DNA of 64,000 bases, taken from NCBI GenBank assembly GCA_030824515.1, contig JAVBXN010000008.1, positions 124,001 to 188,000 of the forward strand, read 5' to 3'. The notes beneath the pieces were generated by a model that searched no databases, was not told where the DNA came from, and was given only the letters and a program-made list of their open reading frames with translations. The translations under genes and the position numbers were made by a program. Shown in pieces: positions 29,595 to 39,016 of this stretch. Source of the DNA: Pelobacter sp. (GTDB lineage Bacteria > Desulfobacterota > Desulfuromonadia > Geobacterales > Pseudopelobacteraceae). Position 1 is the stretch's first letter; each line of letters starts with the position of its first letter.

Positions 29595-29830
29595 GATTGA
29601 TTCTCCTTTTACTAACTGGAATGTCTTTGACCGGCCAGGTATTCGGGCACGTAGTAAGCTTTGTTGAGTCGTCGAGCCTTTCCCGCTTTTGAAATTTGGA
29701 GCTTTCCCCCTTCTATTACTATCAGCGATAAATTCGGGCTTTAATTAAAACAATCGCTGTGGTAAAAATGGATTATATATTCCACTGTTACTTAAACAGG
29801 GAAAATACTTGTATTCAGGTTCTGATAGCC

Positions 29831-30847
29831 ATGCAAACCAAAATAAAATTATATTATTTCTTGTTTTCATCCCTGTTAATTGGAGTAGGTTGGTGTACCC
29901 ACGTTTTGTATGATCATTACTTCACGCAAAAGGAAAGCCGACGAGTACGCATTGGAGGGTATGAATTCATCAGCCCTTTAATTGATGTTGAGCTCCCTGA
30001 AGGATATGGTGTTCGACATGAACCAATCCCGTTCAAGTACAAGATAGTAGAATTAGTCAATCAACAGATTAAATCCGGAAATTCCTTTGACGTTTCGTTA
30101 TATTTCAGGGACTTATCTGACGGCCCATGGTTTAGCATTAACGACAATGTAAAATACAACCCCGCCAGCATGATGAAAGTGCCTGTTATGATCGGGTGGC
30201 TTAAGCGTGCTGAAAAAGATCCGACAGTTCTCCAGCTCAAGTTTACATTTGATGAAAAAAAATACCACACTCCTGTTTTTAAAATAGCCCCGGAAAAAAG
30301 CCTGAAAAATGGTTTCAGCTATTCAGTCGATGAACTCCTCAGTTACATGATGCGCTTTTCCGATAACAATGCAATGGCGGTGCTATATAGTGAGTTAAGT
30401 GACGCTGAGTGCAAATATATTCTTGACAGTATGGACGTAGCCAGCAATCCAAATAGTGATCAGGATTCCATTACGGTTCATGGCTATTCCGGCTTTCTGC
30501 GCATCTTATATAATGCTTCGTTTCTGAACAGAGCAATGTCGGAAAAAGCTCTGAAACTCATGAGTCACCAGGATTTCTCACATGGAATAGCCGCAGGGTT
30601 ACCAACAGGGGTTAAACTTGCATCAAAATATGGCGTCGTTTCTACAAAAGAGAATCCAGACACAATTCAGTTACACGAGTTTGGAATCGTATATCACCCC
30701 AAAGGACCATACATACTGGGTATTATGACTCGAGGAAACAACCTGAATAAACAGTCGGAAGTAATCAAATCACTTTCTGCATCAGTCTACAACTCCTATG
30801 ATTTCGCTCTCAGCACATCAACCCTTAAGAATGCAGGAAAGAAGTGA
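29831..30847 (+). CDS. Serine hydrolase of the class A beta-lactamase fold, AT-rich
   Basis: About 338 residues from the ATG at 29831 (MQTKIKLYYFLFSSLLIG), which gives an N-terminal membrane anchor; 29759 is also in frame. Active-site motifs of penicillin-recognising enzymes are seen: SxxK in NPASMMKVP, SDN in FSDNNAMAVLY, and a weak third motif in LASKYGVVS in place of KTG. The variant third motif and the anchor make a cell-wall or other hydrolase more likely than a true antibiotic resistance enzyme. Its AT-rich codon use against GC-rich neighbours suggests horizontal transfer. Confidence 0.75.
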   Translation: MQTKIKLYYFLFSSLLIGVGWCTHVLYDHYFTQKESRRVRIGGYEFISPLIDVELPEGYGVRHEPIPFKYKIVELVNQQIKSGNSFDVSLYFRDLSDGPWFSINDNVKYNPASMMKVPVMIGWLKRAEKDPTVLQLKFTFDEKKYHTPVFKIAPEKSLKNGFSYSVDELLSYMMRFSDNNAMAVLYSELSDAECKYILDSMDVASNPNSDQDSITVHGYSGFLRILYNASFLNRAMSEKALKLMSHQDFSHGIAAGLPTGVKLASKYGVVSTKENPDTIQLHEFGIVYHPKGPYILGIMTRGNNLNKQSEVIKSLSASVYNSYDFALSTSTLKNAGKK

Positions 30848-32615: not shown

Positions 32616-33077
32616 GTGGAGTCCAGAGAGTTCGCACTTTATAATTATCAAGCCGGCGGCAACGCCAAAAACCTGCTGATCGTTGCCGCGATAGCCGGCG
32701 TGATACTGGCCATTTTTTCAGCTGCCACGTTCTCCCGCTGGGGCCTGCTGTTCCTGCTGCTGCCGGCCGGAATCATCATCCACCTGCTGCGGGCCGGGTA
32801 CGACAAGGCACTGCTGATCGGGAACCGCTACCTGATCCTGGGAAGCAGCATCCTCTATTTCTCCAATGTGGCCAGCGCCCGCCTCGACAAGGCCGCCCAG
32901 ACCCTGACGCTGGTTTCGGTCCGGGGCAGGAGGCTGGTGATAGCCGCCGAAAAGTTCCCCACCAACGCCCGCAAGACCGACAAGATCAGGATCAACAGAA
33001 CCGCCAAGTTCGAGAAGGTTACCGAAAAGATCATCGCCCGCCTGAAAGCGGTCTCCCCCGGAATCGAAATTTCATGA
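32616..33077 (+). CDS. Membrane protein with PH-like domain, first gene of radical SAM operon
   Basis: 153 residues, starting with GTG. A short polar N-terminus is followed by two membrane segments (LLIVAAIAGVILAIFSAATF and LLFLLLPAGIIIHLL). A beta-rich cytoplasmic domain follows, resembling bacterial PH-like domains (YLILGSSILYFSNVASARLD, RGRRLVIAAEKF). Its stop overlaps the radical SAM ATG (ATGA), so the two are translated together. It could be a membrane platform or transport partner for the modified product of the operon. That role is inferred; no family name is certain. Confidence 0.65.
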   Translation: MESREFALYNYQAGGNAKNLLIVAAIAGVILAIFSAATFSRWGLLFLLLPAGIIIHLLRAGYDKALLIGNRYLILGSSILYFSNVASARLDKAAQTLTLVSVRGRRLVIAAEKFPTNARKTDKIRINRTAKFEKVTEKIIARLKAVSPGIEIS

Positions 33078-34909
33078 CAGCGGACACCGCCCCGGAAAAC
33101 GGCTTCCATAGCCATATCCACCTGCTGTATGTGCCGACACTGGCCTGCAACCTGGGCTGCCGCTACTGCTACCTGGGGGACCAGACCAACGGCGCGGATC
33201 TGCGCCGGGACTCCCGTCGGGCGGCGGACACTCTGCGCACGGCACTGGATGCCTTCCTGGGAGCCGGGGTGCTGCCGTTCAACGTGTCGCTGCACGGCGG
33301 CGAGCCGACCATGCTGCCGCCTGCTGTGCTGGATCAGCTGTTCGGCATCATCCGCCGCCACTATCTTGATCATTTCGACGAGCTGACTGCCCTGGGGTTC
33401 AGGAAGTCCGCGCCCCATATCAAGACCAACCTCTATAATTTCGACCGGCTGTACGAGCTGTTCGAGCGCCACAAGGTCTCGATCAGCGCCAGCATCGATC
33501 TGCCGCTGGCGCTGCACGAGCGCTACCGCACCACCCGCCGCGGCGCTTCCTCGCTGAAGCGGACCCTCGCCAACCTGCGGCTCCTGGCCGGCTATCCGCA
33601 CAGCGCCAAGATCTCCTCGACCCTCTACCGCCGGCACCTGGAAGACATCCCGGCCCTGATCGCCGATATCAGGAGAATCCAGCGCGAAACCGGTTTCGAC
33701 ATGAATAACTTCAATTTCATGTTCGGTTTCGATTCGGCCCTCAACCGGGAAAAGTCCGCCGGCTGCCTGACCGATGAGCTGCAGACGGTGCCGGAAGAGC
33801 TGCAACTGAGGTTCTATGAGGCGCTCAAGGCCGAGTTCACCGGGAGCGAACTGGAGGAGGGCTTCCGGCGCAACTGGTTCGACGAATTCAAACCGACCTA
33901 CTGCACCAACGCCTTCAACTGCGGGGAGCGTTTCTTCCTGCTGCAGGGGGATGGCGCGGTCTATTCCTGCGTGCGCGGCCAGGGGCTGGAGGAGTGCTAC
34001 TACGGCAACATCCTGCATGATCCGGTGCAGGAGATCCTTTCCTCCGGACGCCGCCGGATCGCGCTGCTGCACCAGCGCGCCGGCCTCGACCAACAGTGCC
34101 GCGACTGCGAATACCTGCAGATCTGTCATACCGGCTGCCCGGTGGTCAAGCTGCACAGTGGCAGCGCCAGGTCCTACACCTGCGCGCTGCAGAAGGCCAT
34201 CTACCGTGACAATCCCCGTTCCTGGCCCGCGGCGGCCGATGCCGGACAGCAGCAGGCCAACGCCCGCGAGTACATCAGAGGCATGCATCCGGCACTGGCG
34301 CTGGCCGAACCGTTGCCAGCAACGGCCGCACCACTGATCATGTTGCCGGTCGACCTGTACCAGCCCGGCAATACGCTGGCGGAGCTGATCGAGGCCGACC
34401 CGCTGCTGCGCGAGCTCTACAGCGACCGGGCGGTACTGATCGAGATCAACGGCGAGCCGCAGCCGCTCCGTTCCCAGATCATGAAAAGCGGGCGCGAGCT
34501 GTTCTCGATCAACAGTGGCGACAGCATCCGGCTGCATCTGCGGCGCAGCCTGTTCGAGGCCGGCTGTGACGAAACCGTCCGCAACACGCTCCATCTGCAG
34601 ATGCTGCGCGACACCAGGGTGGTCTACGGCGACGAGCAGCGCAGCAAGCAGGAGCACCTCTTCAACCACCAGCTCTTCTACAACCTGCTCAAGCCGAGCC
34701 AGCTTTTTGATGATTTCGTTGTGGCCGACCTGTCCGGCCTGCTGGAACTGCACCGCGATCTGTTCATCAAGGGGGTGCTGAACAACCTGTTCGTGACCAG
34801 CTCGTATCTGCGGGATTATCATTACCAGAAACAGAAGGCCAACGCCTTCTACCATATCCAGGCCATCAACCTGCCGTTCCAGAATTTCGAGTTTTATTGG
34901 GACGAGTGA
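33074..34909 (+). CDS. Radical SAM/SPASM domain enzyme, probable peptide or protein maturase
   Basis: 611 residues. The radical SAM cluster motif CNLGCRYCYLG (CxxxCxxC) lies near residue 27, and SLHGGEPTML is the SAM-binding GGEP motif. The SPASM region (about residues 275-375) has the cysteines for auxiliary 4Fe-4S clusters (FNCGERFFLLQGDGAVYSC, CYYGN, CRDCEYLQICHTGCP, YTCAL). This layout is that of peptide-modifying enzymes and anaerobic sulfatase maturases. About 220 further C-terminal residues of unknown type follow. No sulfatase is nearby, but the next gene encodes a small protein ending in Cys and 14 Asn, the best candidate substrate. Confidence 0.88.
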   Translation: MTADTAPENGFHSHIHLLYVPTLACNLGCRYCYLGDQTNGADLRRDSRRAADTLRTALDAFLGAGVLPFNVSLHGGEPTMLPPAVLDQLFGIIRRHYLDHFDELTALGFRKSAPHIKTNLYNFDRLYELFERHKVSISASIDLPLALHERYRTTRRGASSLKRTLANLRLLAGYPHSAKISSTLYRRHLEDIPALIADIRRIQRETGFDMNNFNFMFGFDSALNREKSAGCLTDELQTVPEELQLRFYEALKAEFTGSELEEGFRRNWFDEFKPTYCTNAFNCGERFFLLQGDGAVYSCVRGQGLEECYYGNILHDPVQEILSSGRRRIALLHQRAGLDQQCRDCEYLQICHTGCPVVKLHSGSARSYTCALQKAIYRDNPRSWPAAADAGQQQANAREYIRGMHPALALAEPLPATAAPLIMLPVDLYQPGNTLAELIEADPLLRELYSDRAVLIEINGEPQPLRSQIMKSGRELFSINSGDSIRLHLRRSLFEAGCDETVRNTLHLQMLRDTRVVYGDEQRSKQEHLFNHQLFYNLLKPSQLFDDFVVADLSGLLELHRDLFIKGVLNNLFVTSSYLRDYHYQKQKANAFYHIQAINLPFQNFEFYWDE

Positions 34910-34921
34910 AGGGAACCAGGG

Positions 34922-35377
34922 ATGCTTACCAAAGAACTGCACCGAACGGCGGCCAACGTCGAAAGATTCCTGACCATGATCGGCATTCCCGACGACGCCA
35001 AACGGGCCGCGATGGAAGAGGAACTGGTCAGCCGCATGTCCGCCGACGGCGCGAAAAAGCCGTTCCTGGTCCATTCACGGAAGAGTATCTTCCTGTACAA
35101 CAACAATATCGTCGTGAAGAGTTTTGCCGCGGATTCGTCCCAAACCGATCAGGTGCTGCAATGCGACTGCCGCAAGATCTCGATCCTCGACCGGCAGGCA
35201 TACCAGCAGGGGGGCAACATTCTGATCATCGGAGCGGCGGCCGCTGCGCTGGGTGCGGGGGGTATCATGGCGGGTGATGCGGAGGCGAGAAGAAGAGCGC
35301 AATCCTCGGGCGGGTCGGATATTTCCTGCAACAACAATAATAATAACAATAATAACAATAACAACAATAACGGCTAA
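34922..35377 (+). CDS. Candidate radical SAM substrate with C-terminal Cys-(Asn)14-Gly
   Basis: 151 residues, starting 12 bases after the radical SAM stop. The N-terminal 95 residues are a small folded-looking domain (MLTKELHRTAANVERFLTMI..., KSIFLYNNNIVVKSF, VLQCDCRKISILD). Next comes QQGG, then a hydrophobic Ala/Gly-rich stretch (NILIIGAAAAALGAGGIMAG), a short basic linker, SSGGSDISC, fourteen consecutive Asn and Gly-stop. The Asn codons mix AAC and AAT irregularly, so the run is kept at protein level. It looks like a precursor for post-translational modification, but could be a membrane-anchored protein. I know of no described family with this tail. Confidence 0.75.
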   Translation: MLTKELHRTAANVERFLTMIGIPDDAKRAAMEEELVSRMSADGAKKPFLVHSRKSIFLYNNNIVVKSFAADSSQTDQVLQCDCRKISILDRQAYQQGGNILIIGAAAAALGAGGIMAGDAEARRRAQSSGGSDISCNNNNNNNNNNNNNNG

Positions 35378-38131: not shown

Positions 38132-38941
38132 CTAAGACTTCATAACCCTCTCCGCAAGAATTGCGTGAAATAACGCATTTAAATGTGGGAGGGGTGTTGA
38201 TTTTACTGATCGTTGCGGATTCAAAGTTTCCAACCGTTCCAACTCGGCGATGATGAAAGAGTTGATACTTGATATTGGCTCTGAAAGCCCCATTTCTGGC
38301 GTTGCGCGTTTTTTGTCGAGAAGCTGCTCAATGTCGGATAACAATCGCGGTTGATCATCAATCAAGTGCAGGAGCTTGCCGAATTCAATTGGAGCCGCTA
38401 CACCGTAACGCTCAATCCATCGAACAGACAATAGAGGCCGGAGCACATAAAAGTACTTCTTCAAGGGAACCATTTCTGCGCGAAGGTAGCCACGATAGTT
38501 TGTCTTGGCCATACTCCGATAATGATATATACCGCTCTCGTTTGAATACACATATGAAAGCAAGTCACGTGCTCCAGATGCAAAACACCCAGACTCGATG
38601 TATTTAATCGGTGATTGGATCCATTCAACAAATGCCGGGTTTGATTTCCAAAAGAGCCGTAAAGCTTTGCGAATATCCCAGCCGTTAAGATCAATATCAT
38701 CGGTAATGCCGTATTCTATGACATCCCGGTGTTCCTCCAGGTCAACTGAGAGATACCAGTCAGCCGAGCGAGCATAGATAAAGCGAACATCGAAATCACT
38801 GTTTGGAGAAGCAAAACCCCACGCCCGGCTTCCAGACTCAATAGCAAGCAGTATGCGAACATCCTGTTCACGTTCTGTGAGAGCAAGTCTATGCATAATA
38901 TCTTGATGTATGTCGTTTGGTATCATTGTGCATTTTCTCAT
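38132..38941 (-). CDS. Nucleotidyltransferase, YcgL/COG3541 type
   Basis: 269 residues from the ATG at 38941, which directly follows the attC core (38943-38949); the frame is open upstream through the attC site and that part is unlikely to be coding. The polymerase-beta-type site is visible as ESGSRAWGFASPNSDFDVRFIY (GSxxxG with DxD). DIDLNGWDIRKALRLFWKSNPAFVEWIQSP is typical of the uncharacterised COG3541 group. Related enzymes act as toxins or modify tRNA or proteins; no specific role can be given. AT-rich, cassette-borne. Confidence 0.8.
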   Translation of the reverse strand: MRKCTMIPNDIHQDIMHRLALTEREQDVRILLAIESGSRAWGFASPNSDFDVRFIYARSADWYLSVDLEEHRDVIEYGITDDIDLNGWDIRKALRLFWKSNPAFVEWIQSPIKYIESGCFASGARDLLSYVYSNESGIYHYRSMAKTNYRGYLRAEMVPLKKYFYVLRPLLSVRWIERYGVAAPIEFGKLLHLIDDQPRLLSDIEQLLDKKRATPEMGLSEPISSINSFIIAELERLETLNPQRSVKSTPLPHLNALFHAILAERVMKS

Positions 38942-38942
38942 A

Positions 38943-39000
38943 GTTCTACGGCGTGGGAGAACAGCGGCGGTTTTAGGCCGCTGTTTCTGCCTGGTTGGAC
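38943..39000 (-). other. attC-type site in the second cassette block
   Basis: Ends are GTTCTAC (38943-38949, one mismatch to consensus) and GTTGGAC (38994-39000). The stem AGAACAGCGGC / GCCGCTGTTTCT encloses a small loop. The start TACGG matches the style of the other sites. The gene ending at 39017 stops 17 bases away, and the next gene starts 2 bases past the site. Confidence 0.6.
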
Positions 39001-39016
39001 CCTCGCCTTTATCCAA

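Follow-up and report, generated by a model that had tools for sequence, protein, structure and literature searches.

We describe a family of radical SAM/SPASM enzymes whose genes recur, across bacterial phyla and in Campylobacter Mu-like phages, next to genes for proteins that end in asparagine. On our overall reading, which we hold to be probable while leaving room for doubt, the enzyme is a SPASM protein maturase that acts on the C-terminal Asn run of otherwise variable carriers, with C-beta chemistry on the tail. That the Asn tail is the substrate of the enzyme we consider very likely.

The window cassette and its enzyme

The window, a stretch of 64,000 nucleotides from a Pelobacter sp. contig, contains at 32616-35377 a three-gene cassette for a membrane protein, a radical SAM/SPASM enzyme, and an Asn-tailed protein (Table 1). 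The first-pass annotation had described three linked genes, with an ATGA overlap between genes 1 and 2, a gap of 12 bases between genes 2 and 3, and a Cys-Asn14-Gly end, all of which are present in the sequence. It had also called the gene 1 product a PH-like membrane protein. The membrane assignment stands, given two N-terminal hydrophobic segments (residues 20-38 and 43-61), after which comes a small conserved domain (motif KFPTNARK); the PH-like label found no confirmation, as the protein has no Pfam match. Homologues of gene 1 lie directly upstream of the enzyme gene in further loci (phmmer; aligned), and predicted membrane proteins adjoin several cassettes. No significant Pfam match to any named family was obtained for the membrane proteins of the cassettes, and a DUF3592-like identity was rejected (E 0.003, in Corynebacterium only, below cut-off). 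In two Bacilli loci (L021:8105-10049 and L059), a zinc-ribbon membrane protein (~340 aa) comes after the tail gene; the Proteobacterial cassette instead has its membrane protein before.

Table 1. Positions of the cassette genes and their parts in the window
Feature	Position	Strand	Basis or remark
Gene 1, 153-aa membrane protein	32616..33077	+	GTG start
Gene 2, 611-aa radical SAM/SPASM enzyme	33074..34909	+	Pfam, NCBIfam, 21-homologue alignment, AnSME fold match
Family-specific C-terminal domain of the enzyme, ~207 residues	34286..34906	+	Alignment, profile search
Gene 3, 151-aa carrier/precursor protein	34922..35377	+	C-terminus ...DISC(N)14G
Poly-Asn tail, 14 Asn codons (AAC/AAT mixed) and a Gly codon; proposed modification site	35330..35374	+	(AAY)8 count, codon alternation test

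The genes that flank the cassette in the window (for a beta-lactamase-like hydrolase, a DUF362 iron-sulfur protein, DUF456, and a NuoL-like subunit) are unrelated to it and are not the same in other organisms; hence, the cassette stands alone. Among the window neighbours tested there was no sulfatase, and no transporter or protease was recognised; nor did one recur at other loci on inspection by eye. The window also encodes a Beta-lactamase2-family serine hydrolase with an N-terminal hydrophobic segment (29759-30847), which is not linked to the cassette, and an RlaP family nucleotidyltransferase of the RNA repair pathway DNA polymerase beta family (38132-39016).

The three SAM-cluster cysteines of the enzyme (C25, C29, and C32; CX3CX2C motif) are invariant in 21 homologues and are also found in the alignment with a phage member. 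Eight SPASM cysteines (C277, C283, C299, C342, C345, C351, C355, and C370), corresponding to two auxiliary [4Fe-4S] cluster sets, are likewise invariant in the 21 homologues, and the full complement of cluster cysteines expected at first sight was thus confirmed. The Pfam scores of the window enzyme lie just below cut-off (Radical_SAM, 28.2 bits with a cut-off of 29.5; SPASM, 20.1 bits with a cut-off of 21.5), and the SPASM domain TIGR04085 is its sole NCBIfam match above cut-off (45.6 versus 27 bits). Named families scored far under theirs: AnSME TIGR03942 (84.8 versus 349.45 bits), DynA (80.5 versus 450), YhhB (69.1 versus 445), GrrM (61.6 versus 310), and PapB. The NCBIfam cut-offs therefore rule out AnSME or any other named maturase family, which fits an enzyme/substrate pair outside the known maturases.

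The best family score and the nearest solved structure, by sequence and predicted fold (4k36/4k37), both belong to the anaerobic sulfatase maturase AnSME (PDB 4k36-4k39), which shares with the window enzyme a radical SAM domain and a full SPASM domain with two auxiliary clusters. Apart from its score, the window enzyme differs from AnSME in having no sulfatase nearby, in an extra C-terminal domain (~210 residues), and at the catalytic base. Asp277 of AnSME aligns to V300, a position that is not conserved (Val, Pro, or His), and the known AnSME chemistry is therefore not simply transferable.

The part after the SPASM domain (~207-220 residues) has no match in Pfam, NCBIfam, or PDB sequences, which upholds its initial description as a novel C-terminal part of ~220 residues. 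It is predicted to be beta-rich (model pLDDT 88.8), and its alignment yields the motif Y-H-Y-x-K-x(3)-N-A-[FY]-Y-H-x(4)-N-L-P-F. In the genomes searched, a profile of this domain hit this enzyme family only, with complete copies at E 7.6e-59 or better and no twilight matches save copies cut by contig ends. Over residues 16-610, the enzyme matches PHROG phrog_1802 (E 2.8e-48), as do Campylobacter phage and Corynebacterium members. By this full-length match, the entry, a "radical SAM domain-containing protein", represents the same family; it was built from phage proteins only and has no assigned function, substrate, or Asn-tail link. Alignments and profiles together show an enzyme of SPASM type with three clusters predicted to be intact and a C-terminal domain of its own.

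Asn-tailed carriers across bacteria

We scanned 84,980 species genomes with exact peptide patterns and obtained 25 loci, a pattern-dependent yield that is no census. An Asn-tailed neighbour (a run of six or more Asn) is present in 23 of the 25; the run in L003 is interrupted by a scaffold gap. Counting homologues beyond these 25 as well, three have no adjoining partner. In L013 the Asn-tailed partner is unlinked, on another contig, where it is the sole (AAY)8 in that assembly; L020 and L046 adjoin contig ends (the L020 contig ends inside the enzyme gene), and their assemblies have no (AAY)8 elsewhere. The gap in L003 falls inside the Asn run (L003:2016-2486), and draft assemblies may lose such tails. 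In L013/L060, the enzyme gene adjoins a GNAT-like gene instead of a partner.

The lineages with the pairing are Geobacterales, Beta- and Gammaproteobacteria, Clostridia, Bacilli, and Corynebacterium. Genome searches by group, whose counts partly overlap with the 25 loci, found the enzyme in 6 of 151 Corynebacterium genomes, 12/241 in a Bacilli order, 9/244 in the window's class, 2/198 in a Gammaproteobacterial order, 3/369 in the class of Chitinilyticum, and 1/349 in the phylum of L015. At the further loci from these searches, an Asn tail was seen at every readable flank. Judging by gene neighbourhoods, the pairing of this enzyme family with an Asn-tailed protein is not local to the window, and the search of neighbourhoods with alignment of C-termini, which the first-pass annotation had put forward as a check, was positive across phyla. 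The window enzyme thus has the marks of a radical SAM/SPASM peptide maturase, namely the CX3CX2C motif, a SPASM domain with two auxiliary clusters, and a nearby putative substrate gene with a conserved core, the last taken as an Asn-tailed neighbour at all readable bacterial loci save the one unlinked.

The gene 3 protein of the window consists of an N-terminal alpha/beta domain (~1-97), a hydrophobic stretch (100-118), a linker, and the Asn14-Gly tail. In its AlphaFold model the N-terminal domain is well ordered and the tail is not; a PDB fold search with this domain gave no significant match. Across bacterial partners the tail has 6-19 Asn. The next residue is Gly in the Proteobacteria, Geobacterales, Clostridia, and Corynebacterium; in Bacilli it is Arg or His, or the run ends the protein. 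On the other side of the run, the residue is Ser, Lys, Gln, or Gly in most lineages. The pre-tail part can be aligned within most Proteobacteria; similarity to the partners of Clostridia, Bacilli, and Corynebacterium, which are down to 62 residues long, was not detectable (phmmer E 0.6 or worse). The 151-aa protein is the partner in the window, as first proposed, and that picture was incomplete in that it is one of several unrelated carriers. Recurrence with unrelated carriers shows the Asn run to be what these predicted partners share.

Tail fibres of Campylobacter Mu-like phages

Members of the enzyme family are also encoded by Campylobacter Mu-like phages (CAM-P21, 28053-29810; a prophage on plasmid NZ_CP082878). 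There, the tail operon runs in the order tail fibre, 211-aa protein (phrog_10241), enzyme, DUF1353 (e.g., L126:4235-7743). Fibres of enzyme phages end in STNNNNY, ATNNNNY, SSNNNNY, CNNNNN, or GNNF/GNNS, and the domains that precede these ends differ. Some phage tails have no more than two Asn (GNNF, GNNS), and the run thus need not be a long homopolymer. By eye, the fibres have nothing in common with the bacterial carriers besides the Asn end. Since a tail fibre serves as the putative carrier in these phages, the common denominator of the carriers is, on sequence evidence, the Asn tail and not the window precursor family.

Among IMG/VR contigs found via a neighbouring tail gene and required to have a complete fibre gene, Asn-ended fibres occur in 8 of 8 contigs with the enzyme versus 0 of 19 without it; the contigs are closely related, so that the counts are not independent and the hypergeometric value of 4.5e-7 overstates independence. 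The enzyme-less contigs have fibres with other C-termini, and after the fibre they encode another small protein, which was DUF4376 in the single case tested. Gene order and fibre ends make clear a swap of a tail-fibre module in Campylobacter Mu-like phages (loci L126, L128-L138, and L139-L167), and we regard this co-occurrence of enzyme and Asn-ended fibre as the best evidence for the pairing. The phage enzyme gene looks broken in L136 and L151, through an altered C-terminus and a split into two reading frames, and is intact in other phages.

In a phylogenetic tree, the enzymes of the phages and those of Corynebacterium cluster together with support, a grouping to be read with a long-branch warning. 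Virulent Campylobacter phages such as CP220 carry many radical SAM proteins (PMC2853527). A link to these was rejected: tblastn of a phage collection with two Mu-like enzymes as queries gave a full-length match to CAM-P21 only.

Selection on the run and its candidate chemistry

Neutral slippage, with the Asn runs as simple-sequence repeats that lie beside the enzyme by coincidence, has next to nothing left to recommend it, although homopolymeric Asn runs do occur elsewhere in AT-rich Bacilli. Repeats made by slippage are expected to show fewer codon switches. In 41 distinct tails we counted 287 AAC/AAT switches versus 246 +/- 10 expected when codons were permuted within each tail, an excess of ~4 standard deviations; such alternation of mixed codons above chance points to selection on the Asn residues and not on a DNA repeat. 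A further run of this kind is almost never seen in GC-rich genomes: the window tail is the sole (AAY)8 in a genome of 4.65 Mb, and within the window's genus (AAY)8 is found in both genomes with the enzyme and in 0 of 20 congeners without it. Across the 34 genomes compared, (AAY)8 is present in 13/14 with the enzyme and 0/20 without; in G1529, the sole enzyme genome without it, the run is broken by a scaffold gap, and among the 13, G790 carries an additional run at another site, a pure AAC repeat. For one AT-rich order of Bacilli, we read (AAY)9 runs in enzyme-less genomes and found them to be internal linkers; C-terminal runs occurred beside the enzyme. The one near-exception comes from a Bacilli genome that has no enzyme gene: a 301-aa protein with the end N12-S-N6-R (L097:1474-2379), encoded upstream of a secretion-ATPase-like gene. 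Codon alternation, the near-uniqueness of the run in genomes, and its recurrence with unrelated carriers together rule out a neutral repeat.

It is also conceivable, if unlikely, that the run serves only for recognition or docking, or as a spacer anchoring the carrier to the enzyme, and that the residue or molecule modified is a different one. Tail length varies freely between close relatives, as a handle's might (14 versus 18 Asn in the window and L002; 9 versus 15 in L010 and L026); yet, besides the run, no residue is conserved across carriers (an alignment of 20 bacterial precursors has one invariant column only, Gly G104), and SPASM maturases normally act on the conserved core of a neighbouring protein. 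Just as doubtful is epimerisation of alternate Asn to D-Asn, which would form a beta-helix like that of the Asn-rich polytheonamides. Polytheonamide has Asn ladders with D-residues, and some radical SAM enzymes epimerise peptides. The peptide epimerases PlpD/PoyD are a precedent (PMC11002830), but the best 25 NCBIfam matches of the window enzyme or of two divergent homologues include no epimerase family (they are AnSME, DynA, PapB, and cyclophane maturases), and a beta-helix is impossible for a phage tail of two Asn. A ranthipeptide-like thioether between Asn and the Cys before the run appears very improbable. Streptococci are known to make Cys-to-Asn C-beta thioethers (PMC11002830), and a Cys precedes the run in the window, its nearest relatives (L002 and L003), and phage locus L167 (CNNNNN), but only there; most tails have no Cys nearby, including those of other Geobacterales (SYSN13-17G). 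In ranthipeptides the core Cys is conserved, whereas here few members have one, and the alignments contradict a thioether as the family-wide mechanism. Of the undescribed system acting on Asn or on the preceding Cys that had been proposed for this locus, the recurrent pairing thus makes the Asn run the probable target, the Cys drops out, and the modification itself is predicted from sequence.

For a maturase that acts on the Asn tail, we can sketch a mechanism. The carrier would be the 151-aa protein in the window, unrelated small proteins in other bacteria, and the tail fibre in Campylobacter Mu-like phages. The C-terminal domain, or a partner (the membrane protein; the 211-aa phage protein), would bring the tail to the active site, where a 5'-deoxyadenosyl radical could abstract H from the beta carbon of successive Asn, iterating along the run. 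The tail might then be oxidised, or its Asn residues might be cross-linked to one another, for example from a side-chain amide N to C-beta, to give a stiff, cyclised tip. This chemistry, an Asn C-beta radical followed by oxidation or Asn-Asn cross-linking, is a bet that we place tentatively. The product probably stays attached to the carrier, because no protease or exporter is linked and membrane proteins are predicted beside several cassettes. Speculatively, a modified Asn end at the phage fibre tip could stabilise the trimer or join in receptor binding.

Related systems offer precedents for parts of this scheme. Related SPASM enzymes are known to act on Asn C-beta in triceptides, dynobactin, and a streptococcal ranthipeptide (PMC11002830), and DynA and the three-residue cyclophane (triceptide) maturases give the second-best family scores of the window enzyme. 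Unlike in those systems, the substrate here would be a homopolymer on a large carrier protein, and in place of the triceptide Aro-X-Asn core, the bacterial Asn runs have no aromatic residue to cross-link, although some phage tails end in NNNNY or GNNF. TvgB, the AnSME-like SPASM enzyme of a poly-cyclopropylglycine system, belongs to the same subfamily and works on a repeat core at numerous positions (PMC9062424); it differs in its TVGG repeat, its Val chemistry, and a larger gene cluster, as against an Asn homopolymer at the very C-terminus. Nothing relevant on radical SAM systems with poly-Asn, Asn-rich proteins, or tail fibres turned up among open-licence papers.

Should the inferred modification of the tail be real, it would amount to radical chemistry by an enzyme on homopolymeric asparagine, a substrate for which the literature open to search gave us no precedent, and, in the phages, a radical SAM post-translational modification on tail-fibre tips. 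It is possible, though we would not lean on it, that this is a horizontally spread tail modification in which one SPASM family puts a new group (cross-linked or oxidised poly-Asn) on any C-terminus with an Asn run, serving a membrane-linked cassette in bacteria and a receptor-binding fibre tip in Mu-like phages. The (Asn)n tail and the C-terminal domain profile provide a simple handle for genome mining, and Campylobacter Mu-like phages, whose fibres are swapped with and without the enzyme, offer a natural experiment through which its function can be tested directly.
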